Assembly: GCF_020387415.1 (NCBI RefSeq)
Contig: NZ_JAGWCB010000018.1
Span: forward strand, 310,001 to 374,000
From: Ideonella benzenivorans
Lineage (GTDB): Bacteria; Pseudomonadota; Gammaproteobacteria; Burkholderiales; Burkholderiaceae_C
Length of the DNA stretch: 64,000 bases
Reading direction: 5' to 3'
The notes below the pieces were generated by a model, which was not told where the DNA came from, searched no databases, and was given only the letters and a program-made list of their open reading frames with translations. Made by a program: the position numbers and the translations under genes. This document shows positions 24,639 through 55,559 of this stretch, piece by piece (the stretch's first letter is position 1; the number at the start of each line of letters is the position of its first letter).

Positions 24639-24653
24639 GGCCCTGCGCCTCAG
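24635..24653. terminator. candidate bidirectional terminator over two convergent stop codons
   Basis: CTGAGGC-CCTGC-GCCTCAG forms a perfect 7-bp stem that includes the stop codon of the AraC gene and the stop of the Mrr-type gene. There is no T-tract, so termination efficiency is uncertain. Confidence 0.4.
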
Positions 24654-25568: not shown

Positions 25569-26249
25569 TCAGAGCCGATGGCCCGACCCGCCGTGGTTCG
25601 TCGAGGTGGCGGCCTGCGGATCGACGTGGATCATCATCCGCACCAGCTCGGCCACGGTGTCGATGCCCAGCTTCTCGCGGATGCGGCAGCGGTGGACCTC
25701 GACGGTCTTCTTGCTGATGCCCAGCTCCTCGCCGATCTCGCGGCTGGACAGGCCATCGATCAACAGGTCCAGCACCTCGCGCTCGCGCGGTGACAGCGTG
25801 GCCAGCTGGTTCTTCATCAGGCGCGCATGCCGCTGCTGACGGTGCAGCTCGGCCGCCAGGTTGACAGCGTCCTGCACGCGGTCGAGCAGGGCCTGGTCGG
25901 AAAAAGGCTTCTCGATGAAGTCGAAGGCGCCGGCCCGCATCGCCCGCACCGACATCGGGATGGTGCCGTGCCCGCTCAGGAACAGGATGGGCAGCTCCGG
26001 GCTGGTGGCGCGCAGCACCTCCTGCAGCTCGAAGCCACCCATCTGCGGCATGCGGATGTCCAGCAGCAGGCAGCCCGGTTGCTCGGGGTCGTGGCTGTCC
26101 AGAAATTCGCGCCCGTTGCGGAACACCTCCACCGGGTGACCCACCGATTCGAGCAGCCAGCGCAGCGAGGTGCGCACCGCGTCGTCGTCGTCGACGACGA
26201 ACACGACCGGGGTGTGGGACGGTGGCTTAGTGGAAGAGCTGGGGTGCAT
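25569..26249 (-). CDS. FixJ/StyR-like response regulator of the aromatic cluster
   Basis: A 226-residue regulator with a receiver domain (VVFVVDDDDAVRTSL, phospho-acceptor in LLLDIRMPQMGGF, Lys in EKPFSD), a short linker and a LuxR-type HTH (LSPREREVLDLLIDGLSSREIGEELG in parts, then KKTVEVHR). It overlaps the kinase gene by 23 bases and is translationally coupled. FixJ-type regulators of this build (StyR, TodT, TutB) activate aromatic degradation operons. The oxygenase operon starts divergently from the kinase, so that operon is its probable target. Confidence 0.9.
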   Translation of the reverse strand: MHPSSSTKPPSHTPVVFVVDDDDAVRTSLRWLLESVGHPVEVFRNGREFLDSHDPEQPGCLLLDIRMPQMGGFELQEVLRATSPELPILFLSGHGTIPMSVRAMRAGAFDFIEKPFSDQALLDRVQDAVNLAAELHRQQRHARLMKNQLATLSPREREVLDLLIDGLSSREIGEELGISKKTVEVHRCRIREKLGIDTVAELVRMMIHVDPQAATSTNHGGSGHRL

Positions 26250-27741
26250 GGTCGACGGCCTCGACCTCGGAGGCCAATGGCAAGGTGAAGTGGAACTTGG
26301 CGCCGCCCGAGGCGCTTTGCGTGACCCACAGGCTGCCGCCGTGGGAATCGATGATGGAGCGGCACAGCGACAGGCCGATGCCCAGGCCTTCCTTCTTGGT
26401 CGTGAAGAAGGCGTCGAAGATCTTGTCTGGGTTGCAGCGCGGCAGGCCGTGGCCACAGTCCTCGATGGACAGGCTCACGGTGCCGGCGGCGGTCAGGTGG
26501 GTGGCCAGGGTCAGCTGGCGCTGGCCCTCGGGCGTGTGCTCCATCGCCTCGATACCGTTGCGGGCGATGTTGGAGATCACCTGCTCGATCAGCACCCAGT
26601 CGCAGTGCACCAGCGCCGGCTCGCGCAGCAGCCGGTAGCGGGTGGCCACGCCACGGGCCCGGGCTTCGATCTCGATGAAGGGCGCGATCTCCTCGACGAT
26701 GGTGCGGATGTCCACCGTCTCGCGGTGGTAGGCGCTCTTGCGGGTGAAGTTGCGCACCGTGCGGATGATGCGGCCGGCCCGTTCGGCCTGCACGCGGGTG
26801 TGCTCCAGCACCTCCATCAGCTCGGGCAGGCCCAGGCTGCCGGCCTGGGCCCGCCGGATGGCGCCACCGACGAAGTTCATGATGGCGAAGAAGGGCTGGT
26901 TCAGCTCATGCGCCAGGGCCGAGGCCATCTCGCCGGTGGTGGACAGGCGCGCCATGTGGCTGAGCTCCAGGTCGCGCTGGCGCACCCGCTCCTCGGCCTC
27001 CAGCCGGGCACTGACGTCGCGGAAGGTCACCAGCAGGCCGTCCACGTGCCGGTCCTCCAGCAGGTTCACGCAGCTGCCCTCCAGCCAGCACCAGCGGCCG
27101 TCGCGGTGCTGGATGCGGCAGGCGAAGGTCTGCTCGCCGGCCGGCTGCAGCGTCAGCTGGCGCAGCAGCTCGCTCAGCCGCTGGGCCTCGGCCGGCTCCA
27201 TGCGCGCGAACACGGCCCGGCCACGCACCTCCCGTTCACGGAACCCCAGCACCTTGCGGATCGACGGCCCCACCCAGGCCACCCGGCCGCGTCGGTCGAG
27301 GATCGCGATGCCGTCGCTGATGTTGCCGATCAGCTGGCGGTAATAGGCCTCGCGCGCGATCAGCCGCTCCTCGGTGGCCTTGCGGTCGGTGATCTCGCGC
27401 ACCAGCGCGATCACCTTGGGCTGGCCGCCGGTGATGATGCGCTTGAGATTCACTTCGGTGGGCACCTGGCTGCCGTCGGGGCGGCGCACCCACCATTCGA
27501 ACAGCTGCGGGCCCTCGTCCACCGCACGGTGAATGTGCGTCAGTGCACCAAGGCCGTCACACCCATGTGGGCGCGAGCTGATGTCCCCCACCCCCATGCG
27601 CGTCAACAGGGGCACGGGCACGCCGGTCATGCGCGCGGCCATGCGGTTGGCATCCAGGATGGCGCCGGTGCGCTCGTCGTGGATGAAGATCGCATCGTTC
27701 GCGTGATCGAACACGTCCTTGTAGTTGGTCGCCAACTGCAT
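26227..27741 (-). CDS. cytoplasmic PAS-PAS sensor histidine kinase of the aromatic cluster
   Basis: A 504-residue kinase without membrane segments. Two PAS/PAC units (about residues 10-125: AIFIHDERTGAILDANRMA; about 130-250: GIAILDRRGRVAWVGPS) are followed by the H-box ALAHELNQPFFAIMNF and an HATPase domain (N box NIARNGIEAM, G box GLGIGLSL). ATG at 27741 has GAGGAAG upstream. A soluble PAS sensor suits direct recognition of an intracellular aromatic, as in StyS or TodS, which are built differently but act similarly. It is divergent from the amidase/oxygenase operon. Confidence 0.9.
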   Translation of the reverse strand: MQLATNYKDVFDHANDAIFIHDERTGAILDANRMAARMTGVPVPLLTRMGVGDISSRPHGCDGLGALTHIHRAVDEGPQLFEWWVRRPDGSQVPTEVNLKRIITGGQPKVIALVREITDRKATEERLIAREAYYRQLIGNISDGIAILDRRGRVAWVGPSIRKVLGFREREVRGRAVFARMEPAEAQRLSELLRQLTLQPAGEQTFACRIQHRDGRWCWLEGSCVNLLEDRHVDGLLVTFRDVSARLEAEERVRQRDLELSHMARLSTTGEMASALAHELNQPFFAIMNFVGGAIRRAQAGSLGLPELMEVLEHTRVQAERAGRIIRTVRNFTRKSAYHRETVDIRTIVEEIAPFIEIEARARGVATRYRLLREPALVHCDWVLIEQVISNIARNGIEAMEHTPEGQRQLTLATHLTAAGTVSLSIEDCGHGLPRCNPDKIFDAFFTTKKEGLGIGLSLCRSIIDSHGGSLWVTQSASGGAKFHFTLPLASEVEAVDHAPQLFH

Positions 27742-27769
27742 TGCGTCTTCCTCAGGAGTGCGGTGTCGC

Positions 27770-27799
27770 AAGCCGGTAAGAACAAGCACCTACTGGCTT
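27770..27799. promoter_or_regulatory. candidate operator: imperfect inverted repeat AAGCCGGTA-N12-TACTGGCTT
   Basis: Nine-base arms match at eight positions and are centred about 21 bp apart, two helical turns, so a dimeric regulator would contact one DNA face. The repeat lies in the 170-bp gap between the kinase gene and the first oxygenase-operon gene, 113 bp upstream of the latter. This fits a FixJ/StyR-like activator site; the role is inferred. Confidence 0.45.
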
Positions 27800-27911
27800 A
27801 GATGCGTTGCCGGATTTGCGCGGGGCCATCCGGTTTCTAACCTTGCAAGCATGTTTCGGGCCGATGTGTTGGGCCCGGAGCGGTCAACAGTTCTAGCTGC
27901 AAGGACGCCCC

Positions 27912-29231
27912 ATGAGCACCCGTGATTCCACTCCCCAGCCTGTCGTCGAGGTCAAGAGCTACACCCGCGGCATCGTCGGCCCCAGCAATGAAATGCTCGG
28001 CCCGGTCGCCGATGGCGGCACCCTGCGCGTGGGCACGCCGCCGGGCTGCTGGGGCCCGATGATCACGCCCAAGTTCCAGGGCGGCCACGAGGTCTCGCAA
28101 CCGGTGGCCGTGGCCGGTGCCGAGGTGGGCGACGCGGTGGCGCTCAAGCTGCGCCACATGGTCGTCACCTCGCTGGCCACCTCGTCGGGCGTGATGTCCT
28201 TTGTCGACGGCCGCTACCTGGGCGACCCCTTCGTCGCCAAGCTCTGCCCCAGCTGCGGCACCGTCAGCCCGCCCAGCCACATCGAGGGTATCGGCGACAA
28301 CGCGGTGCACTGCGACGTCTGCGGCGCCGAGGTCAACGCCTTCCGCTTCGCCAACGGCTATGTGATCGTGCTGGACCAGGACAGCGGCGTCTCGCTGACC
28401 GTGGGCCAGGCGGTGGCCGACCGGCTGGCCACCCAGGCGATGGAATTCGCCCGCCTGCCCGAAGCGGCCGAGCAGCACTCCATCCTGTCGCTGGCCCGCG
28501 CGGACATCGAGGGCCTGGCCGCGCACATGCAGCCCTTCCTCGGCAACATCGGCACCACGCCCTCGCGCGACCTGCCCGACTCGCACAACGCTGGCGACTT
28601 CGGCGCCTTCCTGGTCGATGCACCACACCAGTACGCGATGAGCCAGGCGGAGCTGGACCTGCACAAGACCGATGGCCACATGGACACCAACTCGGTGCGG
28701 GCCGGTGCCATCCTGATCTGCCCCGTCAAGGTGCCCGGGGCCGGTGTCTACCTGGGGGACATGCACGCCCAGCAGGGCAACGGCGAGGTGGCGGGCCATG
28801 CCACCGACGTGGCCGGCTTCACCGAACTGGACGTGCAGGTCATCAAGGGCCTGACGCTGGACGGCCCCATCCTGCTGCAGCGCCCGGACGATCTGCCGCC
28901 GATGGCGCGGCCCATGAGCCCGGAGCAGCGCGCCGCGGTGGAGCGCCTGGCCCAGCGCTACGGCCAGAAGAAGATCGAGCGCAACGGCCCGATCACCTTC
29001 ATCGGCTCGGGCCGCACGCTCAACGACGCCACCCACAACGGCGTGGACCGCGCCGCCAAGGTGACCGGTCTGTCGCCCGACGAGATCCTCAACCGCGCCA
29101 CGATCACCGGCTCGATCGAGATCAGCCGCCTGCCCGGCGTGGTGCGCGTCACCTTCCTGTGCCCGATGGACATCCTGGACCGCCTGGGCATTGGCGCGCT
29201 GGTGCGCGAACAGTACGGGCTCACTGACTGA
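27912..29231 (+). CDS. acetamidase/formamidase family amide hydrolase (FmdA_AmdA)
   Basis: A 439-residue member of the acetamidase/formamidase family. It contains a Cys-containing block (CPSCGTVSPPSH ... CDVCGAEV), the DCHA-like active region as GDMHAQQGNGEVAGHA, and family length. These enzymes release ammonia from short amides such as formamide or acetamide. AAGGAC precedes the ATG. It is the first gene of the aromatic operon, 42 bp before the Rieske oxygenase, so a role on an amide intermediate such as a deformylation or ring-opened amide step is inferred; nitrogen release is the alternative. The CxxC pairs suggest a structural metal site. Confidence 0.88.
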   Translation: MSTRDSTPQPVVEVKSYTRGIVGPSNEMLGPVADGGTLRVGTPPGCWGPMITPKFQGGHEVSQPVAVAGAEVGDAVALKLRHMVVTSLATSSGVMSFVDGRYLGDPFVAKLCPSCGTVSPPSHIEGIGDNAVHCDVCGAEVNAFRFANGYVIVLDQDSGVSLTVGQAVADRLATQAMEFARLPEAAEQHSILSLARADIEGLAAHMQPFLGNIGTTPSRDLPDSHNAGDFGAFLVDAPHQYAMSQAELDLHKTDGHMDTNSVRAGAILICPVKVPGAGVYLGDMHAQQGNGEVAGHATDVAGFTELDVQVIKGLTLDGPILLQRPDDLPPMARPMSPEQRAAVERLAQRYGQKKIERNGPITFIGSGRTLNDATHNGVDRAAKVTGLSPDEILNRATITGSIEISRLPGVVRVTFLCPMDILDRLGIGALVREQYGLTD

Positions 29232-29273
29232 GCCTTTCCATTCCCCGATTCATCCCCTTTCACGGAGCACGCC

Positions 29274-30479
29274 ATGAACGCACCCGCTGAACTGCGCTGG
29301 GCCGCCAAGTACCCCGAGCTGGGCACCGGCCCCATCCCCATCGACCCCTGTGTCTCGCCCGAGTTCTTCGAGCAGGAACGCCAGAAGGTCTTCCTCAAGT
29401 CCTGGCTGAAGGTCGGCCGCGTCGAGGAGATTCCCAACGCCGGCGACTACAAGGTCAAGAAGCTGGACTTCGCCAAGACCTCGGTGATCCTGATCCGCGG
29501 CAAGGACGGCCAGGTGCGCGGCTTCCACAACACCTGCTCGCACCGCGGCAACAAGGTCATCGTCGAGACCGGCGAGGAGACCTTCGGCAAGAACAAGGCC
29601 GCGGTGGTGACCTGCCGCTTCCACGGCTGGGTCTATGACGCCAAGGGCGCCATCGTGCAGGTGCCCGAGGAGCAGAAGTTCCACGCCTGCTTCGAGAAGG
29701 ACAAGAACGCGCTGACGTCGGTGCACACCGACGTCTGGGAAGGCTTCATCTTCGTCAACCTGGACCCGGCCCCGCAGGTGCAGCCGCTGGCCGAGTTCCT
29801 GGGCGGCCTGGGCCAGCACCTGAGCGGCTTCCCGTACCACGAGCTGTCGCACTGCTTCAGCTACCACACCTACCTGGACTGCAACTGGAAGGTGGCGCAC
29901 GACGCCTTTGCCGAGGCCTACCACGTGGCCACCATCCACGCCGGCTCCTTCCCCAATGTGTTCACCTCCGGCCTGCAGAACGTGGAGCTGTTCGGCCCGC
30001 ACCGCACCGCGGCCATCTGCCTGTCGCTGCAGAACGACCCCACCCCGGTGGCCAAGATCGCCAACGCGCTGGCCACCGGCTCGCTGGTGGCGCGCCGCGG
30101 CGCGTCGATGCTGCCGCCGGGTGTCAACCCGGACCACCGCGAGGACTTCGCCTTCGAGCTCTCGGTGATGTTCCCCAACCTGCTGCTGCACGTCTCCGAA
30201 GGCATCTGGTTCACCCACCAGTTCTGGCCGGTGTCGCACAACAAGACCCTGTGGGAAGGCAAGTACTACGTGCGCCCGCCCAAGACCAACGGCCAGCGCT
30301 GGGCCCTGGAGCACGCCCAGTGCCTGCAGCGCAACGCCTGGCTGGAGGACACCGCGACGATGGAGGACACCCAGATCGCGCTCGAGTCCGGTGCCAAGCC
30401 GGTGATGCACCTGCAGGACGACGAGGTCCTGATCCGCCACGGCTACCACGCGCTGGAAGCCGCCATGCACGCCGAATGA
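29274..30479 (+). CDS. Rieske non-heme iron oxygenase, alpha subunit
   Basis: A 401-residue catalytic subunit. The Rieske [2Fe-2S] ligands are C88-x-H90 and C114-xx-H117; the 23 residues between H90 and C114 exceed the usual 15-17. The mononuclear iron triad is H217, H222 (EAYHVATIH) and Asp-365 (MEDTQ), with Glu-214 at the bridging position where many dioxygenases use Asp. It would hydroxylate an aromatic substrate using electrons from the Rieske ferredoxin and reductase encoded about 5 kb downstream. No typical beta subunit follows; the NTF2-fold protein two genes on may fill that place. Confidence 0.93.
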   Translation: MNAPAELRWAAKYPELGTGPIPIDPCVSPEFFEQERQKVFLKSWLKVGRVEEIPNAGDYKVKKLDFAKTSVILIRGKDGQVRGFHNTCSHRGNKVIVETGEETFGKNKAAVVTCRFHGWVYDAKGAIVQVPEEQKFHACFEKDKNALTSVHTDVWEGFIFVNLDPAPQVQPLAEFLGGLGQHLSGFPYHELSHCFSYHTYLDCNWKVAHDAFAEAYHVATIHAGSFPNVFTSGLQNVELFGPHRTAAICLSLQNDPTPVAKIANALATGSLVARRGASMLPPGVNPDHREDFAFELSVMFPNLLLHVSEGIWFTHQFWPVSHNKTLWEGKYYVRPPKTNGQRWALEHAQCLQRNAWLEDTATMEDTQIALESGAKPVMHLQDDEVLIRHGYHALEAAMHAE

Positions 30480-30490
30480 GGAGCCCCACC

Positions 30491-30835
30491 ATGAGCATCA
30501 CCACCCTGCCCAAGTCCTTTGAAGTGCTGGAGCCCCTGGTGCCCAGCTGGGCCCTGGCCACCCAGAACGAGCGCCAGCAGCGGCGCATCCACGCCTCGCG
30601 CGGCGAGCTGCGCGCCTTCTACGAGGCGATGCTGCCGCGCATCGAGGACATCGTCAGCTACGTCGACCGCTACCCGCTGGGCGAGCTGCCGCCCGAGGCC
30701 GAACGCCTGTTCGCGCTGGCCCTGTCGCTGGCCGAGGTGGCGCCGCACATCGAGCTCTACGGCGGCGACCCCAAGGTGCCGCACAGCTTCGACGAGTCGC
30801 GTTTCGTCGCCGACCACGGCGAACAGGTGCTCTGA
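30491..30835 (+). CDS. unknown 114-residue protein between the oxygenase subunits
   Basis: A small, mostly helical acidic protein of no family I can name. Features are a conserved-looking N-terminal FEVLEPLVPSWALAT, a charged helix (NERQQRRIHASRGELRAFYE), LPPEAERLFALALSLAEVAPHIELYG and a C-terminal FDESRF. It starts 11 bases after the Rieske alpha gene and its stop is one base before the NTF2-like gene, so it is tightly coupled to both and is likely a partner or accessory of the oxygenase. It has no Cys pairs, signal peptide or membrane segment. An assembly factor or small subunit is inference. Confidence 0.8.
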   Translation: MSITTLPKSFEVLEPLVPSWALATQNERQQRRIHASRGELRAFYEAMLPRIEDIVSYVDRYPLGELPPEAERLFALALSLAEVAPHIELYGGDPKVPHSFDESRFVADHGEQVL

Positions 30836-30836
30836 G

Positions 30837-31325
30837 ATGGACCTCGCCGGCCTGACCGAACGCCTCACGCGGCTTGAGGACCAAGAGGCCATCCGCACCC
30901 TGGTGGCGACCTATGCGCTGGGGGCGGACCGCCACAACGACCCGGCCATCCTCGGGCCGCTGTTCACCGAGGACGCGGTCTGGGCCTGCGAGGGCTTCGG
31001 CCAGCACCGGGGCGCCGACGAGATCGCCCGCGCCCTGGCCGAGATCGGCCGCACCCGCATTCGCTGGTCGCTGCACTACATGGTGTCGCCGCTGGTGGAG
31101 CGGGCCGACGACGGCGCCACCGCCCGCTGCCGCTGGTACCTCTGGGAGCTGGCCCAGGTGGCCGAGCCCGGCGAGCCCGCAGCGCAGGCGCACTGGATCG
31201 GCGGCTGCTACGACGCCCAGGTGGTGAAGGGCCCGCAGGGCTGGCACTTCGCCCGCGTCGACCTGCAGCTCAAGCTCCTCAGCCCCCACCGCGAAGGCTG
31301 GCAGACCCTGCCGCCTACCCCCTGA
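30837..31325 (+). CDS. SnoaL/NTF2-fold protein, possible oxygenase beta subunit or cofactor-free oxygenase/isomerase
   Basis: A 162-residue SnoaL_4-type protein: ALGADRHNDPAILGPLFTEDAVW, then RIRWSLHYMVSPLV and a conserved acidic strand at the end. NTF2-fold proteins of this size include beta subunits of ring-hydroxylating dioxygenases and small cyclases or isomerases. Its placement directly after the alpha gene and the 114-aa gene supports a beta-like role, but the sequence resembles free SnoaL_4 proteins more than classical beta subunits. An enzyme acting on a hydroxylated heterocycle is the alternative. ATG at 30837 nearly abuts the preceding stop. Confidence 0.82.
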   Translation: MDLAGLTERLTRLEDQEAIRTLVATYALGADRHNDPAILGPLFTEDAVWACEGFGQHRGADEIARALAEIGRTRIRWSLHYMVSPLVERADDGATARCRWYLWELAQVAEPGEPAAQAHWIGGCYDAQVVKGPQGWHFARVDLQLKLLSPHREGWQTLPPTP

Positions 31326-31345
31326 TCCGCATCCAAGGAAGTTTC

Positions 31346-32611
31346 ATGCGCAAGATTTCTCTGATCGGCGGAGGCCAGGCCGGCCTTCTCCTGGGCTTCG
31401 CTCTGCTCGACAAGGGCTATGCCGTCACCCTCTACACCGACCGCAGCCCCGAGCAGGTGCTCAACAGCCGCATCCCCAGCACCGCCTTCCTGTTCAACAG
31501 CTCGCTGCAGTTCGAACGCGAGCTGGGCCTGAACTTCTGGGAGGACGTGGTGCCCTACGGCGAGGGCATGCACGTGGACTTCCGCGGGCCCGATGGCCGC
31601 ATCGGCCTGACCGTGCAGGGCCGCCTGGGCGAACTGAAGGGCCAGGCCCTGGACCAGCGCACCAAGTTCTCCCGCTGGATGCGCGAGTTCAGCCAGCGCG
31701 GCGGCAAGCTGGTGATCCAGTCGGTCTCGGTGACCGACCTGGAGCGCATCGCGGCCGAGAGCGACCTGACCATGGTCGCCGCCGGCAAGGGCCCGATCAA
31801 CGCCTTCTTCGAGCGCGACGAGGTGCGCAGCGCCCACAGCACGCCGCCGCGCCACCTGGCCGCGCTGCTGCTCACCGGCCCGCAGCTGATGGGCGACCGG
31901 CCCTGGGCCCGCGTGCCCTTCCGGCCGCTGCGCTTCAACTTCGTGGCCGGCGTGGGCGAGTTCTTCTCGCTGCCCTTCTACACCCACACCCGGGGCGAGT
32001 GCCGCAGCTTCCTGTTCGAGGCCATTCCCGGCGGCCCGATGGACCGCTTCCAGGCGGCCCGCGACGGCCATGAGCTGCTGGAGATCGCCCGCTCGGTGGT
32101 CGCCGACTTCGCCCCCGACGACCTGCACCACCTGGAGGGTGCCGAGCTGACCGACGAGGACGCCTGGCTCAAGGGCAGCTTCCTGCCCACGGTGCGCAAG
32201 CCGGTCGGCCGCCTGCCCGGTGGCGGGCTGGTGATGGCCATCGGCGACACCGCGGTGCTCAACGACCCGATCGCCGGCCAGGGCGCCAACAACGCGGTGC
32301 GCATGGTGCGCTACCTGGCCGAGCGCATCCAGGCCCAGGGCCAGCAGCCCTTCGACGCCGACTGGATGCAGGACGTGTTCGAGACCTTCTGGAACGCATC
32401 GGCCGTCTTCACCACCGGCTTCACCAACGCGCTGCTGCTGCCGCCGGGCGAGCCGGTGATGGAGGTGCTGGGCGCCGCCTCGGTGCACCCGCCGGTGGCC
32501 GATGCCTTCATGCGCGGTTTCGACAACCCGGCCAACTACTTCCCCTGGATCACCGACGTGGCCCTGGCGCGTGCCTTCGTCGCCGAAAGGACGGTGCGCG
32601 ATGCGGCCTGA
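31346..32611 (+). CDS. StyA-like styrene/indole flavoprotein monooxygenase
   Basis: A 421-residue two-component FAD monooxygenase. The FAD loop is LIGGGQAGLLLGFAL and the second FAD motif is VMAIGDTAVLNDPIAGQGANN; length and order match StyA (about 415). It would epoxidise an alkene or indole C2-C3 bond using FADH2 supplied by the next gene. The product begins an indole dihydrodiol-type route if the SDR that follows oxidises it, as in the iif/ind clusters known from Acinetobacter and Cupriavidus. The stop overlaps the reductase start. Substrate assignment is inference. Confidence 0.9.
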   Translation: MRKISLIGGGQAGLLLGFALLDKGYAVTLYTDRSPEQVLNSRIPSTAFLFNSSLQFERELGLNFWEDVVPYGEGMHVDFRGPDGRIGLTVQGRLGELKGQALDQRTKFSRWMREFSQRGGKLVIQSVSVTDLERIAAESDLTMVAAGKGPINAFFERDEVRSAHSTPPRHLAALLLTGPQLMGDRPWARVPFRPLRFNFVAGVGEFFSLPFYTHTRGECRSFLFEAIPGGPMDRFQAARDGHELLEIARSVVADFAPDDLHHLEGAELTDEDAWLKGSFLPTVRKPVGRLPGGGLVMAIGDTAVLNDPIAGQGANNAVRMVRYLAERIQAQGQQPFDADWMQDVFETFWNASAVFTTGFTNALLLPPGEPVMEVLGAASVHPPVADAFMRGFDNPANYFPWITDVALARAFVAERTVRDAA

Positions 32612-33134
32612 GCCCAGCCCCGTCTGGCGCGACGATGGCGAGGCCGGCGACCCCGCCGCGCTGCGCCGCGCGCTGGGCCTGTTCGCCACCGGCGTCACCG
32701 TGGTGACCACGCTGGCCGACGACGGCCGCCCGGTGGGCATCACCGCCAGCTCCTTCAACACCGTCTCGCTGGACCCGGCGCTGGTGCTGTGGAGCCTGTC
32801 GCGCCGATCGCCGCATGCCGGCCGCTTCCGGCCTGGCCGGCCCTTCGGTGTGAACGTGCTGGCCGGTGACCAGACCGCGCTGTGCCAGCGCTTCGGCCAG
32901 CCCGGCGCCGACAAGTTCGCCGGCCTGAGCACCACGCCCGGCGTGGGCGGCGTGCCCATGCTGCCCGGCGCGGCAGCGCAGTTCGAGTGCGTCGGCTTTG
33001 CCGAGCATCCCGGCGGGGACCACGTGATCGTCGTCGGCCAGGTGCTGCGCCTGCGCTGGCGCGACACCGCCCCGATGGTGTTCTGCCGCGGCCGGCTGGG
33101 CGTGCTGCCCGAAGCCGAGCCGCTGGCGGCCTGA
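32601..33134 (+). CDS. flavin reductase (StyB-like) partner of the monooxygenase
   Basis: A 177-residue member of the flavin_reduct family: LRRALGLFATGVTVVTT, the ITASSFNTVSLDPALVLWSL block and the late C-terminal strand. It supplies reduced flavin from NAD(P)H to the StyA-like enzyme. ATG at 32601 lies inside the end of the upstream gene, an 11-base overlap typical of translational coupling between the two components. The N-terminus carries about 20 residues before the family domain. Confidence 0.92.
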   Translation: MRPEPSPVWRDDGEAGDPAALRRALGLFATGVTVVTTLADDGRPVGITASSFNTVSLDPALVLWSLSRRSPHAGRFRPGRPFGVNVLAGDQTALCQRFGQPGADKFAGLSTTPGVGGVPMLPGAAAQFECVGFAEHPGGDHVIVVGQVLRLRWRDTAPMVFCRGRLGVLPEAEPLAA

Positions 33135-33151
33135 ATCAAGGAGAACGACCC

Positions 33152-33934
33152 ATGCGAGGACTGGACAACAAGGTGGCCATCGTCAGCGGCGGCGCCACGC
33201 TGATCGGCGCGGCGGTGGCGCGGGCCTTCGTGGCCGCCGGCACGCAGGTGCTGGTGGCCGACATCGACGACGCGGGCGGGCAGGCCCTGGCCGCCGAGCT
33301 GGGCCCGGCGCTGCGCTTTCAGCACACCGACCTGGCCGTGGAGGCCGAGGTCGAGGCCTGTGTGGCCGCGGCCCAGGCCCACTTCGGCCGCCTCGACTTC
33401 GTCGTCAACGTGGCGGCCGTCTATGCCGACCAGGGGCCGGGCACCACGCGCGACGAATGGACCCGCTCCTTCGCCGTCAACGTGATCGGCCCGGCGCGGC
33501 TGGTGCAGCTGGCCTGCCCGCACATGGCGCCGGGCAGCGCGGTGGTGAACTTCGGCTCCACCAGCGCGGGCGTGGCCCAGGCCGGCCGCTGGGCCTACCC
33601 GGCCACCAAGGCCGCCGTGCTGCAGCTCACCCGCAGCGAGGCGCTAGACCTGGCCGGCGCCGGCATCCGCGCCAATGCCGTGTCACCCGGCTGGACCTGG
33701 TCGGGCGTGCTCGACCAGATCTCCGGCGGTGACCGGGCCCGGGTCGAGGCCGTGGCCCGCCCCTTCCACATGCTCGGCCGCATCGGCGACCCCACCGAGG
33801 TGGCCGAGGCCGTGCTCTTCCTGTGCTCCGACCACGCCCGCTTCATCACCGGCGCCAACCTGGCCGTCGATGGCGGCTATGCCGCCCTCGGCCCCGAACA
33901 GGGCCTCACCCCCATCCTGGAGTTGCTGTCATGA
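33152..33934 (+). CDS. SDR family dehydrogenase of the aromatic cluster
   Basis: A 260-residue SDR. The cofactor loop is SGGATLIG, a departure from TGxxxGIG; the NAD-selecting acid is in ADIDD, and the catalytic pair is Ser-Tyr-Lys in GSTSAGVAQ...YPATK. The VNVAAVY stretch replaces the usual NNAG. AAGGAGAA precedes ATG at 33152. Following oxygenase components, it fits a dihydrodiol or alcohol dehydrogenase that rearomatises the hydroxylated product. Its stop overlaps the ATG of the porin gene as ATGA. Confidence 0.88.
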   Translation: MRGLDNKVAIVSGGATLIGAAVARAFVAAGTQVLVADIDDAGGQALAAELGPALRFQHTDLAVEAEVEACVAAAQAHFGRLDFVVNVAAVYADQGPGTTRDEWTRSFAVNVIGPARLVQLACPHMAPGSAVVNFGSTSAGVAQAGRWAYPATKAAVLQLTRSEALDLAGAGIRANAVSPGWTWSGVLDQISGGDRARVEAVARPFHMLGRIGDPTEVAEAVLFLCSDHARFITGANLAVDGGYAALGPEQGLTPILELLS

Positions 33935-35103
33935 CCTCGCTGTTCCGCTTCCGCCTGCTGCCGCTGTGCGGCCTGATCCTGGCCGGCCTGGCCACCCTGC
34001 CGGCCCGCGCCACCAACGGCACCATGCCGCACGGCTATGGCATCGCCTCGCAAGGCATGGGCGGCGCCTCCATCGCCTTGCCGCAGGACGCGGTGGCCGC
34101 GGCCAACAACCCCTCGGGCATGGCCCTGCTGGGCGAACAGCTGGAGCTGGGCCTGGCGGTGGTGCTGCCCAAGCCCTCGGCCACCTTCGGCGGCACCACC
34201 TTCGACGGCGGCGGCCTGAAGGCCATCCCGGTGCCCGAGTTCGGCTATGTGCGGCCGCTGGACACCCAGCAGACGGTCGGGGTCTCGGTCTATGGCAATG
34301 GGGTGGCGACCAAGTACCGCCAGTCGATTTCGGGCGGCACCGACAGCGCCAGCGACGGCGCCAACCTGACCCAGGTGATCGTCTCGCCCACCTACGCGCT
34401 CAAGCTCAGCGCCGGCCAGGCGGTGGGGGTTTCGCTGGACCTGGCCTACCAGCGCTTCCGTGTCAACGGCGTGCCCGATGCCAATGGCGTCGAAGGCCAG
34501 GGCTACGAATCCTCCACCGGCGTCGGCCTGAAGCTGGGCTGGACCGGCGAGGTGCTGCCGGGTGTCTCGCTGGGCGCGATGTACGCCTCGCGCATCCACA
34601 TGGGCAAGCTCAAGGCCTACAGCGCGCTGCTGGCCGATGGCGGCCAGTTCGACGTGCCCGAGCGTTACGGCCTGGGCCTGGCGGTGCAGGCCCCGGCCGG
34701 CCTCACCTTCGCCGCCGACGTGATGCGGGTGAACTGGGGCGACCTGGCCTCGCTGGGCAACGCCCTGACCGACCCGCAGCCCGGCTTTGGCTGGCGCAAC
34801 CAGACGGTCGTGCGCGCCGGCGTGGCCTGGGAGGTTCGGCCCCAGTGGACGCTGCGCGCGGGCTACAGCCACGGCACGCAGATCGTCAGCAGCGACAACA
34901 CCACGCTGAACTATCTGGCGCCGGTCACGCCGCAGCAGCACCTGACCCTGGGCGCGACCTGGAAGTTCGACCCCCACCAGTCCCTCAGCCTGGCCTATGC
35001 GCGGGCGATCGGCACCACCGTGCACGGCACCGGCGCCAGCACCGGGGTGGATGTGCGCATGTCGCAAAACTGGCTGGCCGCCGCCTGGTCCTACGCCTGG
35101 TGA
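33931..35103 (+). CDS. OmpP1/FadL/TodX-like outer membrane channel
   Basis: A 390-residue outer membrane protein with a signal peptide ending ARA (residue 27) and the mature start TNGTMPHGYGIASQGMGGAS, the FadL-family plug region with the NPA-like PSG motif in AAANNPSGMALLG. The C-terminus ends in aromatic SYAW, as barrels do. TodX- and FadL-like channels bring hydrophobic aromatics into the periplasm. Position inside the operon indicates uptake of the pathway substrate. It overlaps the SDR gene by four bases. Confidence 0.93.
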   Translation: MTSLFRFRLLPLCGLILAGLATLPARATNGTMPHGYGIASQGMGGASIALPQDAVAAANNPSGMALLGEQLELGLAVVLPKPSATFGGTTFDGGGLKAIPVPEFGYVRPLDTQQTVGVSVYGNGVATKYRQSISGGTDSASDGANLTQVIVSPTYALKLSAGQAVGVSLDLAYQRFRVNGVPDANGVEGQGYESSTGVGLKLGWTGEVLPGVSLGAMYASRIHMGKLKAYSALLADGGQFDVPERYGLGLAVQAPAGLTFAADVMRVNWGDLASLGNALTDPQPGFGWRNQTVVRAGVAWEVRPQWTLRAGYSHGTQIVSSDNTTLNYLAPVTPQQHLTLGATWKFDPHQSLSLAYARAIGTTVHGTGASTGVDVRMSQNWLAAAWSYAW

Positions 35104-35136
35104 GGCACCTCCCACCCTGCCCCTGAAAGCCCGACC

Positions 35137-35475
35137 ATGACGACTCCCTTTCCCCTGACCCCCCTGTGCGCCGTGGCCGACGTGCCCGCCGGCGGCTGCC
35201 GCCGCATCGAACTGCCCGGCCGGCCTCCGCTGGCGGTGTTCCGCATCGACAGCGGCATCCACGTCACCGACGACACCTGCACCCATGGCGATGCCTCGCT
35301 GTGCGATGGCGAGATCGAGGACGGCCTGGTCGAGTGCCCCTACCACCAGGGCGCCTTCGACATCGCCACCGGCAAGCCGGCCGGTGCGCCCTGCACCATC
35401 GCGCTGCGGGTCTATCCGGTGCAGCTGCAGGATGGCCAGGTGTTGGCTGCGCTGCCGGTGCAGGAGCCGGCATGA
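35137..35475 (+). CDS. Rieske-type ferredoxin
   Basis: A 112-residue ferredoxin with ligands C48-x-H50 and C67-xx-H70 (CTHG ... CPYHQG) and the canonical 16-residue spacing. It should carry electrons from the reductase encoded next to the Rieske oxygenase alpha subunit of this operon. Its stop overlaps the reductase ATG (ATGA). Size and motif match BphF/NahAb-type proteins. Confidence 0.94.
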   Translation: MTTPFPLTPLCAVADVPAGGCRRIELPGRPPLAVFRIDSGIHVTDDTCTHGDASLCDGEIEDGLVECPYHQGAFDIATGKPAGAPCTIALRVYPVQLQDGQVLAALPVQEPA

Positions 35476-36488
35476 CGGTGAGCGTGAACGGCGGCGAAGC
35501 CCGCTTCGAGGTGGCCGAGGGCGACACCCTGCTGCGGGCCGCGCTGCGGGCGGGCGTGGCCCTGCCCTACGAATGCGGCGTGGGCGCCTGCGGCTGCTGC
35601 CGCTGCGAGGTGACGCAGGGCCAGGTCGAGGTGTTGTGGGCCGAGGCCCCGGGCCTGAGCGAGCGCGACCGCCGCAAGGGCCGACAACTGGCCTGCCAGT
35701 GCCGGCCGCTGGGCGATGTGGACCTGACACTGCGCCTGGACCCGCGCGGCACCGCCCCCACGCCGCCGCGGCGCCAGGCCGCCACGCTGCGGGCGGTGCG
35801 GCCGCTCACCCACGACCTGCGCGAGTTCGTGTTCCAGACCGAGGCCCCCGCGACCTTCGAGCCCGGCCAGTACGCCTTCCTGGGCCTGCCCGGCCTGGTG
35901 CGCGAGCGGGCCTACTCGATGGCCAACCTGGCCAACGCGGCGGGCGAGTGGCACTTCGGCGTGCGCCGCGTGCCCGGCGGCGAGGCCAGCAACGCGCTGT
36001 TCGACACCCTGCGGCCGGGCGACAGCGTGGCGCTGGACGGCCCCTACGGCATGGCCTGGCTGCGGCCGGACGTGCCGCGCGACATCGTCTGCATCGCCGG
36101 CGGCTCCGGTCTGGCGCCGATGCTGTCGGTGGCCCGGGGCGCGGCCGCCACGCTGCTGCGCGATGGCCCGCGGCGGCTGGACTTCTTCTACGGCGGCCGC
36201 ACGCCGGCCGACCTGTGCGGCCAGGCCGAGCTGGCGGCGCTGGGCGTGGACGGCGACCGACTGCGCTACCACGCGGCCGTCTCCGACGCGGCCGCGGCGA
36301 CGGCTGCCGGCTGGACCGGCGCGGTCGGGCCCATCCACGCCCTGGTCGAACAGACGCTGGGCGCCGCCCTGGCCGAGCGCGAGGTCTACCTGGCCGGCCC
36401 GCCCGGCATGGTGGAGGCCGTGCTGACCCTGCTGCAGGTCACCCACCGGATCCCGCCGGAGCGGATCCACTTCGACCGCTTTTTCTGA
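35472..36488 (+). CDS. ferredoxin-type oxidoreductase: 2Fe-2S, FAD and NAD(P) domains
   Basis: A 338-residue electron-transfer protein. The N-terminal plant-type [2Fe-2S] domain has C35, C40, C43 and a late Cys near 75 (CGVGACGCC). The FAD-binding motif RAYSMAN is near residue 150 and the NAD(P) lobe has IAGGSGLAPMLS. This architecture is that of class IB/III oxygenase reductases (BenC, PhtR, NahAa-like). It would pass electrons from NADH to the Rieske ferredoxin, with which it overlaps by four bases. It completes a three-component Rieske system whose oxygenase gene lies about 5 kb upstream. Confidence 0.94.
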   Translation: MTVSVNGGEARFEVAEGDTLLRAALRAGVALPYECGVGACGCCRCEVTQGQVEVLWAEAPGLSERDRRKGRQLACQCRPLGDVDLTLRLDPRGTAPTPPRRQAATLRAVRPLTHDLREFVFQTEAPATFEPGQYAFLGLPGLVRERAYSMANLANAAGEWHFGVRRVPGGEASNALFDTLRPGDSVALDGPYGMAWLRPDVPRDIVCIAGGSGLAPMLSVARGAAATLLRDGPRRLDFFYGGRTPADLCGQAELAALGVDGDRLRYHAAVSDAAAATAAGWTGAVGPIHALVEQTLGAALAEREVYLAGPPGMVEAVLTLLQVTHRIPPERIHFDRFF

Positions 36489-36499
36489 GGGGCCAACCG

Positions 36500-36772
36500 A
36501 TGGACGCTGCCGATTGGATCGGCCCGCTGGCCGGCGTGCTGAGCACCGCCTCCTTCGTGCCCCAGGCCTGGCACATCCTGCGCCGGCGCCGGGCCGACGA
36601 TGTGTCCTGGGGCACCTACTTGCTGCTGACCGCGGGCGTGGGGCTGTGGATGGCCTACGGCTGGCTGCGCGGCGACCGGCCGCTGCTGTGGACCAATGGC
36701 CTGATCGGCGTGAACGCCGTGGCCATCCTGCTCATGAAGTGGCATTACCAGCGGCGGGCCACCCGCCGCTGA
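36500..36772 (+). CDS. SemiSWEET/PQ-loop-like small membrane transporter
   Basis: A 90-residue protein with three hydrophobic helices and the MtN3/SemiSWEET features: LAGVLSTASFVPQAWHILRR in helix one (PQ-type motif), WGTYLLLTAGVGLWMAYGWL and a final helix NAVAILLMKW. SemiSWEETs dimerise to form a sugar-type uniporter. It starts 11 bases after the reductase gene and may be the last gene of the aromatic operon, though a link to the pathway is not obvious. Its stop and that of the convergent gene lie in one palindrome, TGAGGCGCCTCA. Confidence 0.85.
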   Translation: MDAADWIGPLAGVLSTASFVPQAWHILRRRRADDVSWGTYLLLTAGVGLWMAYGWLRGDRPLLWTNGLIGVNAVAILLMKWHYQRRATRR

Positions 36773-37388: not shown

Positions 37389-38528
37389 ATGCCCTCTTCC
37401 ACGCCCCGCATCACCGTGCTGGGGGCCGGCTTTGCCGGCCTGTCCACCGTCCGCGCCCTGCGCCGGCAGGCGCCGCACGCCGAGATCACTCTCGTCGCGC
37501 CCCGGGCCGAGCTGCACTACCTGCCCGGCATCATCTGGATCCCGGCCGGCCTGCGCCGGCGCGAGGACCTGGTGGTGCCGCTGGACAACTTCTTCCGGCG
37601 CCAGCGCGTGCAGCATGTGGCGGCGGAGGTCACCGGCCTGGCCGACGGCGGGCGCACGGTGCTGACCAGCGCCGGCCCGCGGGCCAACGACGGCCTGGTC
37701 ATCGCCACCGGCGGACGCTTCCTGAAAAAGCTGCCCGGCATCGAGCACGCCATCACCCCCTGCGAGGGCATTGCCGCGGCCGAGCGCATCCGCGACCGGC
37801 TGCGGGCGATGTCCGGCGGCACCGTCGCGGTGGGCTTCGCCGGCAACTCGAAGGAGCCCAGCGCGGTGCGCGGCGGGCCGATGTTCGAGTTCCTGTTCGG
37901 CATCGACGAGCAGCTGCGCCGCGAGGGCCGGCGGGAGCGCTTCGAGCTGGTCTTCTTCAACCCCTCGACCGAGCCCGGTGCCCGCCTGGGCCCGCAGGCC
38001 GTGCAGCATCTGCTGGGCGAGATGGCCCGGCGCGGCATCCGCACCGTGCTGGGCCACAAGATGGTCCGATTCGAAGCCGATCAGGTGGTGACCGAGGGCG
38101 AGGCCTTCCGGGCCGACCTGATCCTCTTCATGCCCGGCATGACGGGCAACGCCTGGTTCGATGCCACTGAACTGCCCCGCTCGCCCGGGGGCCTGCTGCA
38201 GGCCGACGCGCACTGCCGCGTGCCCGGCTTCGAGCGGGTGGTCGTGGTGGGCGACTCCGGCAGCTTCCCTGGGCCCGACTGGATGCCCAAGCAGGCCCAC
38301 ATGGCCGACCTGCAGGCTCAGGCCGCGGCCACCAACCTGCTGGCCGATCTGGCCGGCCGGCCGTCCCAGGCCACCTTCCCGGTGGAGCTGGTCTGCATCG
38401 TCGACGCGATCGACCACGGCACCCTGATCTGGCGCACCGAGCGCCGCCACCTGATGTGGCCCTCCAGCCGCCTGCTGCACTGGGCCAAGCGCGGCTTCGA
38501 ACGTCACTACCTGAGGCAATACCGATGA
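37389..38528 (+). CDS. SQR-like FAD/NAD(P)-dependent oxidoreductase
   Basis: A 379-residue flavoprotein resembling sulfide:quinone oxidoreductases: FAD loop LGAGFAGLSTVRAL, IATGGRFL, VVVGDSGSF and a C-terminal amphipathic region. Of the three redox cysteines of true SQR, candidates for the first (C125, TPCEG) and last (C336, LVCIV) are present, but the position in the GNSKEPSAVRGGPMFEF block, where SQR has Cys before GPAYEF, is occupied by Ala/Val. It may therefore act on another sulfur species or a quinone only. The truncated haemoglobin gene overlaps its stop, pointing to NO, O2 or sulfide chemistry. Confidence 0.78.
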   Translation: MPSSTPRITVLGAGFAGLSTVRALRRQAPHAEITLVAPRAELHYLPGIIWIPAGLRRREDLVVPLDNFFRRQRVQHVAAEVTGLADGGRTVLTSAGPRANDGLVIATGGRFLKKLPGIEHAITPCEGIAAAERIRDRLRAMSGGTVAVGFAGNSKEPSAVRGGPMFEFLFGIDEQLRREGRRERFELVFFNPSTEPGARLGPQAVQHLLGEMARRGIRTVLGHKMVRFEADQVVTEGEAFRADLILFMPGMTGNAWFDATELPRSPGGLLQADAHCRVPGFERVVVVGDSGSFPGPDWMPKQAHMADLQAQAAATNLLADLAGRPSQATFPVELVCIVDAIDHGTLIWRTERRHLMWPSSRLLHWAKRGFERHYLRQYR

Positions 38529-38947
38529 ACACCTCTCCTGTCCTGAGCCCCTACGACCGCCTGGGCGGCGAAGCCGGCGTGCGCCGTCTGGTCGAGCGCT
38601 TCTACGCGCTGATGGATGAGCTGCCCGAGGCCTACACCGTGCGGCAGATCCACCCCGAGAGCCTGGCCGGCAGCGCCGACAGCCTGTTCAAGTACCTCAG
38701 CGGCTGGTTCGGTGGACCGCCGCTGTACACCGCCGAGAAGGGCCACCCCCGGCTGCGCATGCGCCACCTGCCTTACAGCGTGGGCCCGGTGGAGCGCGAC
38801 GAGTGGATGCTGTGCATGCGCCAGGCCCTGGCCGAGACAGTGGACGACATGGCCCTGCGCGCCCTGCTGGAGAAGGCCTTTGGCGACATGGCCGCGCACA
38901 TGGTCAACAGCGACGGGCGGCGCTGCCCGGGCGAAGCCGCGGCCTGA
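38525..38947 (+). CDS. group II truncated haemoglobin
   Basis: A 140-residue truncated globin. It opens with YDRLGGEAGVRRLVERFYALMDE and has the group II signature LRMRHLPYSVGPVERDEWMLCM, containing the proximal His and Trp-G8. Group II proteins bind O2 and NO and often serve in NO detoxification or redox reactions. The ATG overlaps the stop of the SQR-like gene (ATGA), so the two are translationally coupled. A GC-rich hairpin (38950-38973) follows. Confidence 0.94.
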   Translation: MNTSPVLSPYDRLGGEAGVRRLVERFYALMDELPEAYTVRQIHPESLAGSADSLFKYLSGWFGGPPLYTAEKGHPRLRMRHLPYSVGPVERDEWMLCMRQALAETVDDMALRALLEKAFGDMAAHMVNSDGRRCPGEAAA

Positions 38948-52004: not shown

Positions 52005-52045
52005 GTCACCTCCCTGGTGTTGCTGCTTGTGGAGAAGAAGACCTG

Positions 52046-55539: not shown

Positions 55540-55559
55540 GGCCCGGCAATGGCAGGCCC

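Follow-up and report, generated by a model that had tools for sequence, protein, structure and literature searches.

A run of ten genes at positions 27912-36488 of the window (the whole stretch of 64,000 nucleotides of Ideonella benzenivorans DNA analysed here) combines a StyA-like flavoprotein monooxygenase with a Rieske oxygenase, which raises the question of what compound two oxygenase systems in one operon would attack. The reading favoured here, and considered fairly probable, is that of an inducible operon serving growth on skatole (3-methylindole), or on a 3-substituted indole close to it, by a four-step route ending in catechol. Gut and manure bacteria produce skatole, a toxic compound with a foul, faecal odour, and according to a 2026 paper on Rhodococcus the later steps of its breakdown have yet to be elucidated (PMC13101512). 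With its core kept across Beta- and Gammaproteobacteria, this operon of ten to eleven genes would offer candidate enzymes for the remaining skatole steps, among them the opening of the lactam and the formation of catechol.

Gene content and organization

All ten reading frames are open and lie on the + strand in a single direction, in the order given by the first-pass annotation, and the tight spacing it described was also found (gaps between neighbours of 42, 11, 1, 20, -11, 17, -4, 33 and -4 bp). According to a Pfam/NCBIfam scan, the run begins with an acetamidase/formamidase-family amidase of 439 aa (27912..29231; PF03069, 136.6 bits), followed by a Rieske oxygenase alpha subunit of 401 aa (29274..30479; PF00355 and PF00848), a 114-aa protein of an unnamed family without Pfam or NCBIfam match (30491..30835) and a SnoaL/NTF2-fold protein of 162 aa (30837..31325; SnoaL_4 PF13577, 76.1 bits). 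Next are the StyA-like Group E flavoprotein monooxygenase of 421 aa (31346..32611; PF17885), its flavin reductase partner of 177 aa (32601..33134; PF01613, 130.7 bits), an SDR dehydrogenase of 260 aa (33152..33934; PF13561) and a FadL/TodX-like outer-membrane protein of 390 aa (33931..35103; Toluene_X/FadL PF03349). The run closes with a Rieske-type ferredoxin of 112 aa (35137..35475; PF00355; 104.4 bits with the HcaC-type NCBIfam model, cut-off 113) and a BenC/AntC-like ferredoxin reductase of 338 aa with Fer2, FAD and NAD domains (35472..36488; PF00111, PF00970 and PF00175).

An eleventh gene, absent from the first-pass annotation, encodes a SemiSWEET/PQ-loop transporter-like protein (36485..36772, + strand; PF04193; SemiSWEET_2 73.9 bits, cut-off of 80 not reached); it overlaps the ferredoxin reductase gene by 4 bp and is probably the last gene of the operon. 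A tRNA-Cys call at 24407-24503 was taken as false, as it sits inside an AraC gene on the other strand.

A divergent kinase/regulator pair on the - strand had likewise not been listed. It consists of a FixJ-like response regulator with receiver and LuxR-type HTH domains (25569..26195; PF00072 and PF00196) and a FixL-like PAS-domain sensor histidine kinase (26227..27789; Pfam PAS, HisKA and HATPase_c). The best NCBIfam matches of the pair were FixJ (203.6 bits, cut-off 255) and FixL (225.6 bits, cut-off 850), both below cut-off. The frame of the regulator opens further upstream, its start being uncertain, and the true start of the kinase may be at about 27741. Between the kinase and amidase genes, the block CCGGTAAGAACAAGCACCTACTGGCTTAGATGCGTTGCCGGATTT (27773..27817) is conserved in an alignment of seven Ideonella, Zoogloea and Parasulfuritortus loci; no match to its core pattern was obtained in L048, L067 or L068. 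The block is a candidate regulator-binding site or promoter region. A promoter scan yielded no sigma-70-like sites, a result of little weight at 70% G+C.

Conservation across genomes

The comparison set comprised the 13 genomes found to encode a StyA-like protein with 50% or more identity to that of the window, the window's own genome included; the StyA of Ideonella oryzae NS12-5 reaches 98% identity. Core genes in the same order were present in 12 of them, from Ideonella, Zoogloea, Parasulfuritortus, genome G360 and two Acinetobacter plasmids, i.e. from Beta- and Gammaproteobacteria. The search for the gene set in other genomes, suggested by the first-pass annotation, thus found both oxygenases clustered in 12 of 13 cases, and the proposal that both systems attack one compound sequentially is rendered probable by this conserved operon. 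The exception, G168, has StyA alone (orphan locus L047), and no Rieske alpha subunit was found in that genome at 1e-30; conversely, a Rieske module without StyA occurs in Novosphingobium (L070). The two oxygenases are therefore kept together yet separable.

FixL-like kinase and FixJ-like regulator genes were present in all 12 clusters, each of which also has the amidase gene directly before that of the Rieske alpha subunit. The FadL/TodX-like gene was detected in eight of the 12 and is regarded as accessory to the cluster; the SemiSWEET-like gene was detected in six. The order in the Acinetobacter loci L067 and L068 is amidase, Rieske alpha, hypothetical protein, NTF2 protein, StyA, reductase, SDR, ferredoxin and ferredoxin reductase. 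In G360, two further genes and the regulator separate the StyA half from the Rieske half, and no relatives of the ferredoxin or its reductase were found within the 20 kb read.

StyA-like monooxygenase, reductase and SDR

The StyA-like protein scored 177.2 bits with the NCBIfam model of StyA (NF045732), below the cut-off of 550, and is therefore not StyA itself. A styrene operon was rejected on this score and on the lack of any styrene-pathway isomerase or aldehyde dehydrogenase family among the ten proteins of the run and nine flanking proteins. In a phylogenetic tree, 11 StyA proteins of Rieske clusters were separated from 19 of the indole type with a support of 100/100. Published fingerprints are S-Q-M-V/I-I for indole monooxygenases (IMO) and N-V-H-Y-H for styrene monooxygenases (SMO), and skatole monooxygenases are reported to carry neither (PMC13101512). 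The IMO fingerprint was found in all 19 indole-type proteins and in none of the 11 from Rieske clusters; the window protein reads S-A-L-G-M at five aligned positions (own alignment, in which the sixth position was not placed). Like the SkaMO branch it lacks both fingerprints, although such a lack is weak evidence, being shared by L066 and L069. The protein is thus a candidate skatole-type Group E monooxygenase, and gene order together with reported features suggests kinship to SkaA (QIX49842.1), p38 gene1687 (XEZ56878) and Burkholderia IifC1 (APT36898; accessions as given in PMC13101512).

The StyA proteins of Rieske clusters are 38-42% identical to the IifC candidate of Acinetobacter baumannii (L084), compared with 56-63% for 17 of 18 further StyA loci read in this family (30% for the remaining one, L066); the SDR of the window shares 47% identity with the L084 IifB candidate. 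A relative of the dienelactone-hydrolase-like IifA was found in none of the 12 Rieske clusters and, within the stretch read, in just six of the 18 other loci, so that many of the latter lack IifA too. The first-pass annotation had likened the StyA/reductase/SDR trio to the iif/ind indole clusters. The data do not support this tie: StyA falls in a separate branch without the indole-monooxygenase fingerprint, all 12 clusters lack a relative of IifA, and the regulators are FixL/FixJ-like here as against an AraC-family gene in L116, L118 and L119 (three annotated trio loci read, outside the family sample).

Rieske oxygenase and its putative partners

The Rieske alpha subunit has intact cluster ligands (CSHR and CRFHGW), and Glu is found at the bridging position, which is occupied by Asp in many Rieske alpha subunits. 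The operon thereby encodes an alpha subunit carrying the Rieske and iron-site motifs together with a Rieske ferredoxin and an FAD-containing reductase. Regarding the earlier description as a complete three-component system, the electron transfer chain is thus confirmed, with the NTF2 protein standing as a candidate beta subunit. This protein matches PF13577 and PF12680 and did not match PF00866, the classical beta-subunit family, at 0.001, a family that AntB of L084 does match. Kinship to IifA or AntB was rejected, phmmer giving no match to either protein of L084; the best blastp hit (E 0.019) was to the N-terminal part of IifA. The NTF2 protein may be a beta-like subunit or a separate enzyme. 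The alpha subunit scored 82.5 and 74.3 bits with the anthranilate dioxygenase profiles (cut-offs 671.9 and 750, respectively), whereas AntA of L084 reached 956 bits (cut-off 671.9).

Of 17 relatives of the Rieske alpha subunit found in plasmids, 15 have a gene of the 114-aa family beside them, which suggests that the protein is probably an unrecognised partner of the alpha subunit; a small family without Pfam or NCBIfam entry thus appears to travel with one Rieske oxygenase lineage. An AlphaFold model built with nine close rows was of low confidence (pLDDT 64.8) and had no PDB match at E 0.001. For five members of the family, a Pfam scan up to E 10 gave QCR10 (E 0.091) as the sole match, which was taken as chance. 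The family was found in at least two of 399 Burkholderiales genomes, that of the window and G897 (profile search with at most 11 candidates scored per genome), and a close link to IacB is unlikely, provided that iac genes are present in this sample. Searches of open-licence PMC papers for the operon or the 114-aa family gave no hit naming the whole gene set, which may still be described elsewhere.

Amidase

Relatives of the amidase outside the cluster (53-74% identity) had no Rieske or StyA relatives nearby in six of six regions (L110-L115), so that this type of amidase is not specific to the pathway; a role as lactam or amide hydrolase is proposed. Cupriavidus sp. KK10 is a reported skatole degrader, and a region of its plasmid holds one of these amidase relatives, with a PAS kinase as well as a FixJ-like regulator nearby. 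KK10 was rejected as a second skatole degrader with the cluster, which is lacking at this amidase region.

Proposed pathway

In the first step, the StyA-like oxygenase with its flavin reductase would oxidise the C2=C3 bond of skatole, and the SDR would then oxidise the hydrated product to 3-hydroxy-3-methyloxindole. The IifA reaction presumably needs a hydrogen at the carbon that is quaternary in this compound, and would therefore be blocked. The amidase may instead open the lactam to 2-(2-aminophenyl)-2-hydroxypropanoate, whose ring would be dioxygenated at the carbon bearing the amino group and the adjacent one by a Rieske oxygenase formed from the alpha subunit, the 114-aa protein and perhaps the NTF2 protein, and fed by the ferredoxin and its reductase. 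Ammonia and the three-carbon side chain would leave, yielding catechol. The side chain would be released as pyruvate by a retro-aldol cleavage, either spontaneous or catalysed by the NTF2 protein (atom balance C9H10O5 = C6H6O2 + C3H4O3). That skatole is converted all the way to catechol, pyruvate and ammonia in this manner, via the amidase, the Rieske oxygenase with its helical partner of about 114 aa and the retro-aldol cleavage, is a tentative and rather doubtful proposal; such chemistry is not described in the literature consulted.

Regarding the fate of catechol, CatA (TIGR02439, 414.3 bits, cut-off 392) is encoded right after sdr in G360, L067 has catA, catC and a muconate cycloisomerase gene nearby, and no cat genes were found in the stretch read of L068. 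The window's own genome encodes a catechol 2,3-dioxygenase (441.5 bits, cut-off 320.2); no intradiol dioxygenase was found in it.

Support for skatole comes from Acinetobacter piscicola p38, where genes 1687 and 1688 (StyA/reductase) degrade skatole and indole, and genes 1684, 1687 and 1690 are listed as raised on skatole (PMC11434297). These induction and oxidation data, transferred to the cluster by matching gene order, point to a probable skatole-type substrate in I. benzenivorans.

A rival reading is an indole operon of the iif/ind type, with which the trio is shared, plus an added Rieske oxygenase that would act as an anthranilate dioxygenase. In L084 the iif genes are followed by antABC (all three over the cut-offs), and in p38 gene1687 oxidises indole too and gene1684 (Rieske alpha) is also listed as raised on indole (PMC11434297). 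However, tree, fingerprint and the lack of an IifA relative in any of the 12 clusters led to the rejection of an indole operon as first choice, the alpha subunit is far below the anthranilate dioxygenase cut-offs, unlike AntA of L084, and an amidase would not be needed for indole; this explanation is judged quite unlikely. It is unlikely that the true substrate is a different 3-substituted or N-heterocyclic compound (indole-3-acetate, oxindoles or quinoline-type) and the activity on skatole incidental. This reading would accommodate the identity of only 51% between the StyA-like proteins of the window and the Acinetobacter plasmids, the parallel of gene roles with the iac auxin cluster and the amidase-Rieske-114 aa-NTF2-ferredoxin module without StyA in Novosphingobium, but no IacA-like (acyl-CoA-dehydrogenase-type) or MarR protein was found among the 19 run and flank proteins scanned, and of the characterised gene sets the one that matches best is that induced by skatole in p38 (PMC11434297). 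That two unrelated catabolic functions merely share a promoter is very improbable: each half does occur alone (L047 and L070) and the halves are parted in G360, but in 12 genomes from both Beta- and Gammaproteobacteria they stand together in conserved order, and the gaps in the window are at most 42 bp.

Comparison with known systems

Going by their numbering and annotation, genes 1684 (Rieske alpha), 1687 (StyA), 1688 (reductase) and 1690 (HcaC ferredoxin) of p38 correspond to the order in the window, and this register also matches L067 and L068. Within the gene1684-1690 region only the StyA/reductase pair was expressed by the authors, and the word 'amidase' is absent from the main text (PMC11434297). 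The Rhodococcus ska cluster, by its description, shares a StyA-type oxygenase without SMO or IMO fingerprint, a three-component ring-hydroxylating oxygenase and a LuxR-type regulator; it differs in gene order (skaCDZEFGHAIJKRLB), with skaB 7 kb from skaA, and Gram-negative SkaMOs are under 40% identical to Rhodococcus SkaA (PMC13101512). The iif/ind clusters share the trio of StyA-like protein, flavin reductase and SDR, whereas the window has the amidase and the Rieske module and neither an IifA relative nor an AraC gene in the run. Plasmid pABRDHK22 of Novosphingobium sp. EMRT-2 (L070) shares the order amidase, Rieske alpha (65%), 114-aa family, NTF2 protein and ferredoxin, but has no relative of StyA, flavin reductase or SDR, and its amidase matches that of the window over 13% of the length only (44%).

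The iac auxin cluster, as described in two reports (PMC7225977; PMC11676955), shares a flavin oxygenase, a flavin reductase, an SDR, a Rieske oxygenase, an amidase and a small unknown protein, but its first-step oxygenase belongs to another family. In the A. baumannii record PF00866 gave two matches, and no iac cluster was found at the one that was read, antB, which lies near the iif genes. The product of the iac pathway is catechol, and the two reports leave a gap after a 3-hydroxy-oxindole (PMC7225977; PMC11676955). If the route proposed here is true, applying the same chemistry to DOAA, an intermediate of auxin degradation, would yield catechol and oxaloacetate (C10H10O7 = C6H6O2 + C4H4O5) and would fill that gap.

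Operon organization

The source genome comprises 4.49 Mb in 21 contigs. Gene calls with family matches (Pfam, NCBIfam) place ten genes on the forward strand at 27912-36488, encoding an amidase, a Rieske alpha subunit, a 114-aa protein, an NTF2/SnoaL protein, a StyA-like flavoprotein, a flavin reductase, an SDR, a FadL/TodX-like porin, a Rieske ferredoxin and a ferredoxin reductase. The intergenic gaps are, in order, 42, 11, 1, 20, -11, 17, -4, 33 and -4 bp; the one-directional run of the first-pass annotation is confirmed, with each gap at most 42 bp, and extended. A SemiSWEET-like gene follows directly on the same strand with a 4-bp overlap with the ferredoxin reductase gene, and genes for a FixJ-like regulator and a FixL-like PAS kinase, both scoring under the curated cut-offs, lie upstream on the reverse strand. 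The proteins encoded by the cluster share 92-100% identity with their counterparts in Ideonella oryzae NS12-5.

On motif inspection the Rieske ligand motifs of the alpha subunit are intact, and its iron-site stretch, NWKVAHDAFAEAYHVATIH, contains Glu at the position of the bridging residue, which is Asp in many dioxygenases. Within the kinase-amidase spacer, a block at 27773-27817 is conserved in seven aligned loci of Ideonella, Zoogloea and Parasulfuritortus, much of the remaining spacer being variable among the same loci; a search for the core pattern of this block gave no match in locus L048 or in two Acinetobacter plasmid loci (L067, L068).

Elsewhere in the window, two genes with a 4-bp overlap lie downstream of the operon (37389-38947, forward strand) and encode a pyridine-nucleotide-disulphide oxidoreductase and a bacterial globin. 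An Mrr_cat restriction-endonuclease-like protein with a weak topoisomerase-type zinc ribbon is encoded at 24650-25489 (reverse strand), between an AraC regulator and the FixJ-like response regulator; I. oryzae has an open frame whose first residues are similar. The lowest-G+C stretch of the window, at 48744-57017 (reverse strand), encodes a type I restriction-modification set made up of HsdR, HsdS and HsdM together with a Schlafen/AlbA_2 protein.

Conservation of the cluster

A pattern scan of the genome-contig collection, which reaches close relatives only, yielded 11 loci. Nine, with StyA identities of 77-98%, came from eight genomes: six of Zoogloea, Parasulfuritortus cantonensis and I. oryzae. 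One Zoogloea genome, a MAG, seems to have its cluster divided between two contigs. In the other two loci (StyA identity 37-42%) the remaining cluster genes were absent, save a flavin reductase in one. The two Acinetobacter plasmids, which originate from pig faeces and manure, encode a StyA of 51% identity. A StyA relative (1e-40) occurred in 31 of 399 genomes of the same family, close only in the window's genome, G168 (72%) and G360 (63%); five other genomes of the window's genus in this sample had none at that threshold.

Contig scan, plasmids and family sample together gave 13 genomes that encode a close StyA. Twelve share the gene order amidase, Rieske alpha, 114-aa protein, NTF2, StyA, reductase, SDR, which bears out the proposed pairing of two oxygenases in one operon. 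Kinase and regulator accompany all 12 clusters, ferredoxin and ferredoxin reductase 11 (neither was found in 20 kb around the G360 cluster), the porin eight and SemiSWEET six. G360 carries two extra genes and the regulator between NTF2 and StyA; both Acinetobacter plasmids have a transporter gene ahead of the amidase, with kinase and regulator at the opposite end. G168 has an orphan StyA (C31, 1797-3056): no other cluster gene, flavin reductase, SDR and Rieske included, was found in the first 20 kb of the contig, and a search of the whole genome at E 1e-30 gave no Rieske alpha. A StyA relative occurs in 28 further genomes of the family; surroundings were read for 18, and none of these 18 loci had relatives of the amidase, Rieske alpha or 114-aa protein (1e-5). 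A sample of 369 genomes from the class gave three with a Rieske alpha match at E 1e-100 and one of 399 genomes from the order gave a single one, the window's own counted.

Relation to indole monooxygenases

The first-pass annotation had likened the StyA/reductase/SDR trio to the iif/ind indole clusters, a likeness that the StyA-like protein does not sustain. In a maximum-likelihood tree of 35 proteins with groups assigned beforehand (11 Rieske-cluster, 19 indole-type from 17 family loci, L073 and the A. baumannii record L084, and five in neither group), Rieske-cluster and indole-type StyA are split with 100/100 support. The G168 orphan falls inside the Rieske side, whereas L044 and L046 group on the side of the indole-type proteins; L066 and L069, both on long branches, stand beside the Rieske side, their placement unsure. 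At the five positions of the indole fingerprint (PMC13101512) placeable by alignment, S-Q-M-V/I-I occurs in 19/19 indole-type and 0/11 Rieske-cluster proteins, the window's having S-A-L-G-M. Skatole monooxygenases are reported without the fingerprint in that source. Three indole-type loci (L050, L051, L073) have two StyA-like genes in tandem.

The IifA candidate of L084 belongs to the dienelactone-hydrolase family in Pfam. IifA is described as a two-domain protein in PMC7225977; a SnoaL part was detected in a relative of the candidate (L116) and not in the L084 protein itself. Relatives occur in 6 of the 18 family loci and in none of the 12 Rieske clusters, an absence that alone says little because the other 12 indole-type loci lack IifA too.

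The 114-aa protein

This protein had no match in Pfam or NCBIfam; its predicted model is mostly helical, of low confidence, and had no match among solved folds. Because its gene adjoins Rieske alpha across plasmids and genomes, the product is probably a partner subunit of one Rieske lineage. A plasmid search (E 0.01) found 25 places encoding a relative, 17 directly adjoining a Rieske alpha gene by coordinates. The eight counted as without one are a Cupriavidus necator place and seven Sphingobium/Sphingomonas places of equal score, two of which were inspected and five assumed alike. Conversely, 15 of 17 plasmid places with a Rieske alpha relative (E 1e-50) have a 114-aa relative, the exceptions being match H34 and one of the two places of H27. 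A profile search of 399 Burkholderiales genomes found relatives in two, the window's genome and G897, both beside Rieske alpha; the window's genome has four further Rieske alpha genes, none with a 114-aa relative within 1.5 kb.

On plasmids of Sphingomonas MM-1 (L080) and Sphingobium TKS (L085), linC, EthD and a 114-aa relative lie between IS6100 copies without a Rieske alpha. A Novosphingobium EMRT-2 plasmid (L070, 7778-21291) has three Rieske alpha genes, each beside a 114-aa relative and two also beside an NTF2 protein.

Proposed pathway

The operon would serve growth on skatole (3-methylindole) or a closely related 3-substituted indole, ending in catechol. Catechol as product is favoured by dioxygenase genes nearby or in the same genome: in G360 a catechol 1,2-dioxygenase gene (414.3 bits, cut-off 392) directly follows the SDR, and L067 has catA, catC and a muconate cycloisomerase gene on the opposite strand, some 3 kb ahead of the amidase (none of the three was found in the stretch of L068 read). 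The window's genome has no intradiol dioxygenase and encodes a catechol 2,3-dioxygenase on another contig (441.5 bits, cut-off 320.2).

Turnover by IifA yields anthranilate, and anthranilate 1,2-dioxygenase attacks the amino carbon and its neighbour. In indole catabolism the IifA substrate is 3-hydroxyindolin-2-one (PMC7225977). With a methyl group at C3 the lactam has no hydrogen there, and an IifA-type step would therefore be closed. The amidase and Rieske system may replace it by lactam opening, dioxygenation at the amino carbon and its neighbour, and loss of ammonia and the side chain, a route that balances in atoms and in which each step is a candidate. DOAA is the auxin analogue of this lactam; its way to catechol is given as unknown in PMC7225977, and PMC9613470 reports a requirement for iacC in one strain and an involvement of iacCDF in a second. 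The NTF2 protein did not match a classical beta-subunit model, which counts against the skatole reading, as do amidase relatives (53-74% identity) without Rieske or StyA relatives in 6/6 regions read. One of these is from Cupriavidus sp. KK10, a reported skatole degrader (L111, 5020-11308; 68% identity, rest of the cluster absent), where FixJ-like regulators and a PAS kinase are divergent from the amidase. The interest of the cluster lies in the downstream steps and the unnamed Rieske partner.

Comparison with skatole-degrading systems

In Acinetobacter piscicola p38, according to PMC11434297, the StyA-like gene 1687 in combination with the reductase gene 1688 degrades both skatole and indole, and 1650/1651 indole only. 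Genes listed there as raised on skatole are 1684 for Rieske alpha, 1687, and 1690 for an HcaC-type ferredoxin; 1684 is raised on indole as well. This last response and the lack of IifA in most indole-type loci slightly lower the confidence in the skatole reading, and since the Acinetobacter StyA is only 51% identical the substrate may differ. By gene count, p38 1684-1690, compared here by gene number, is in register with L067 and L068, which encode Rieske alpha, a hypothetical protein, NTF2, StyA, reductase, SDR and ferredoxin. Gene order, fingerprint and company make it reasonably likely that the window's cluster belongs with the skatole-type clusters.
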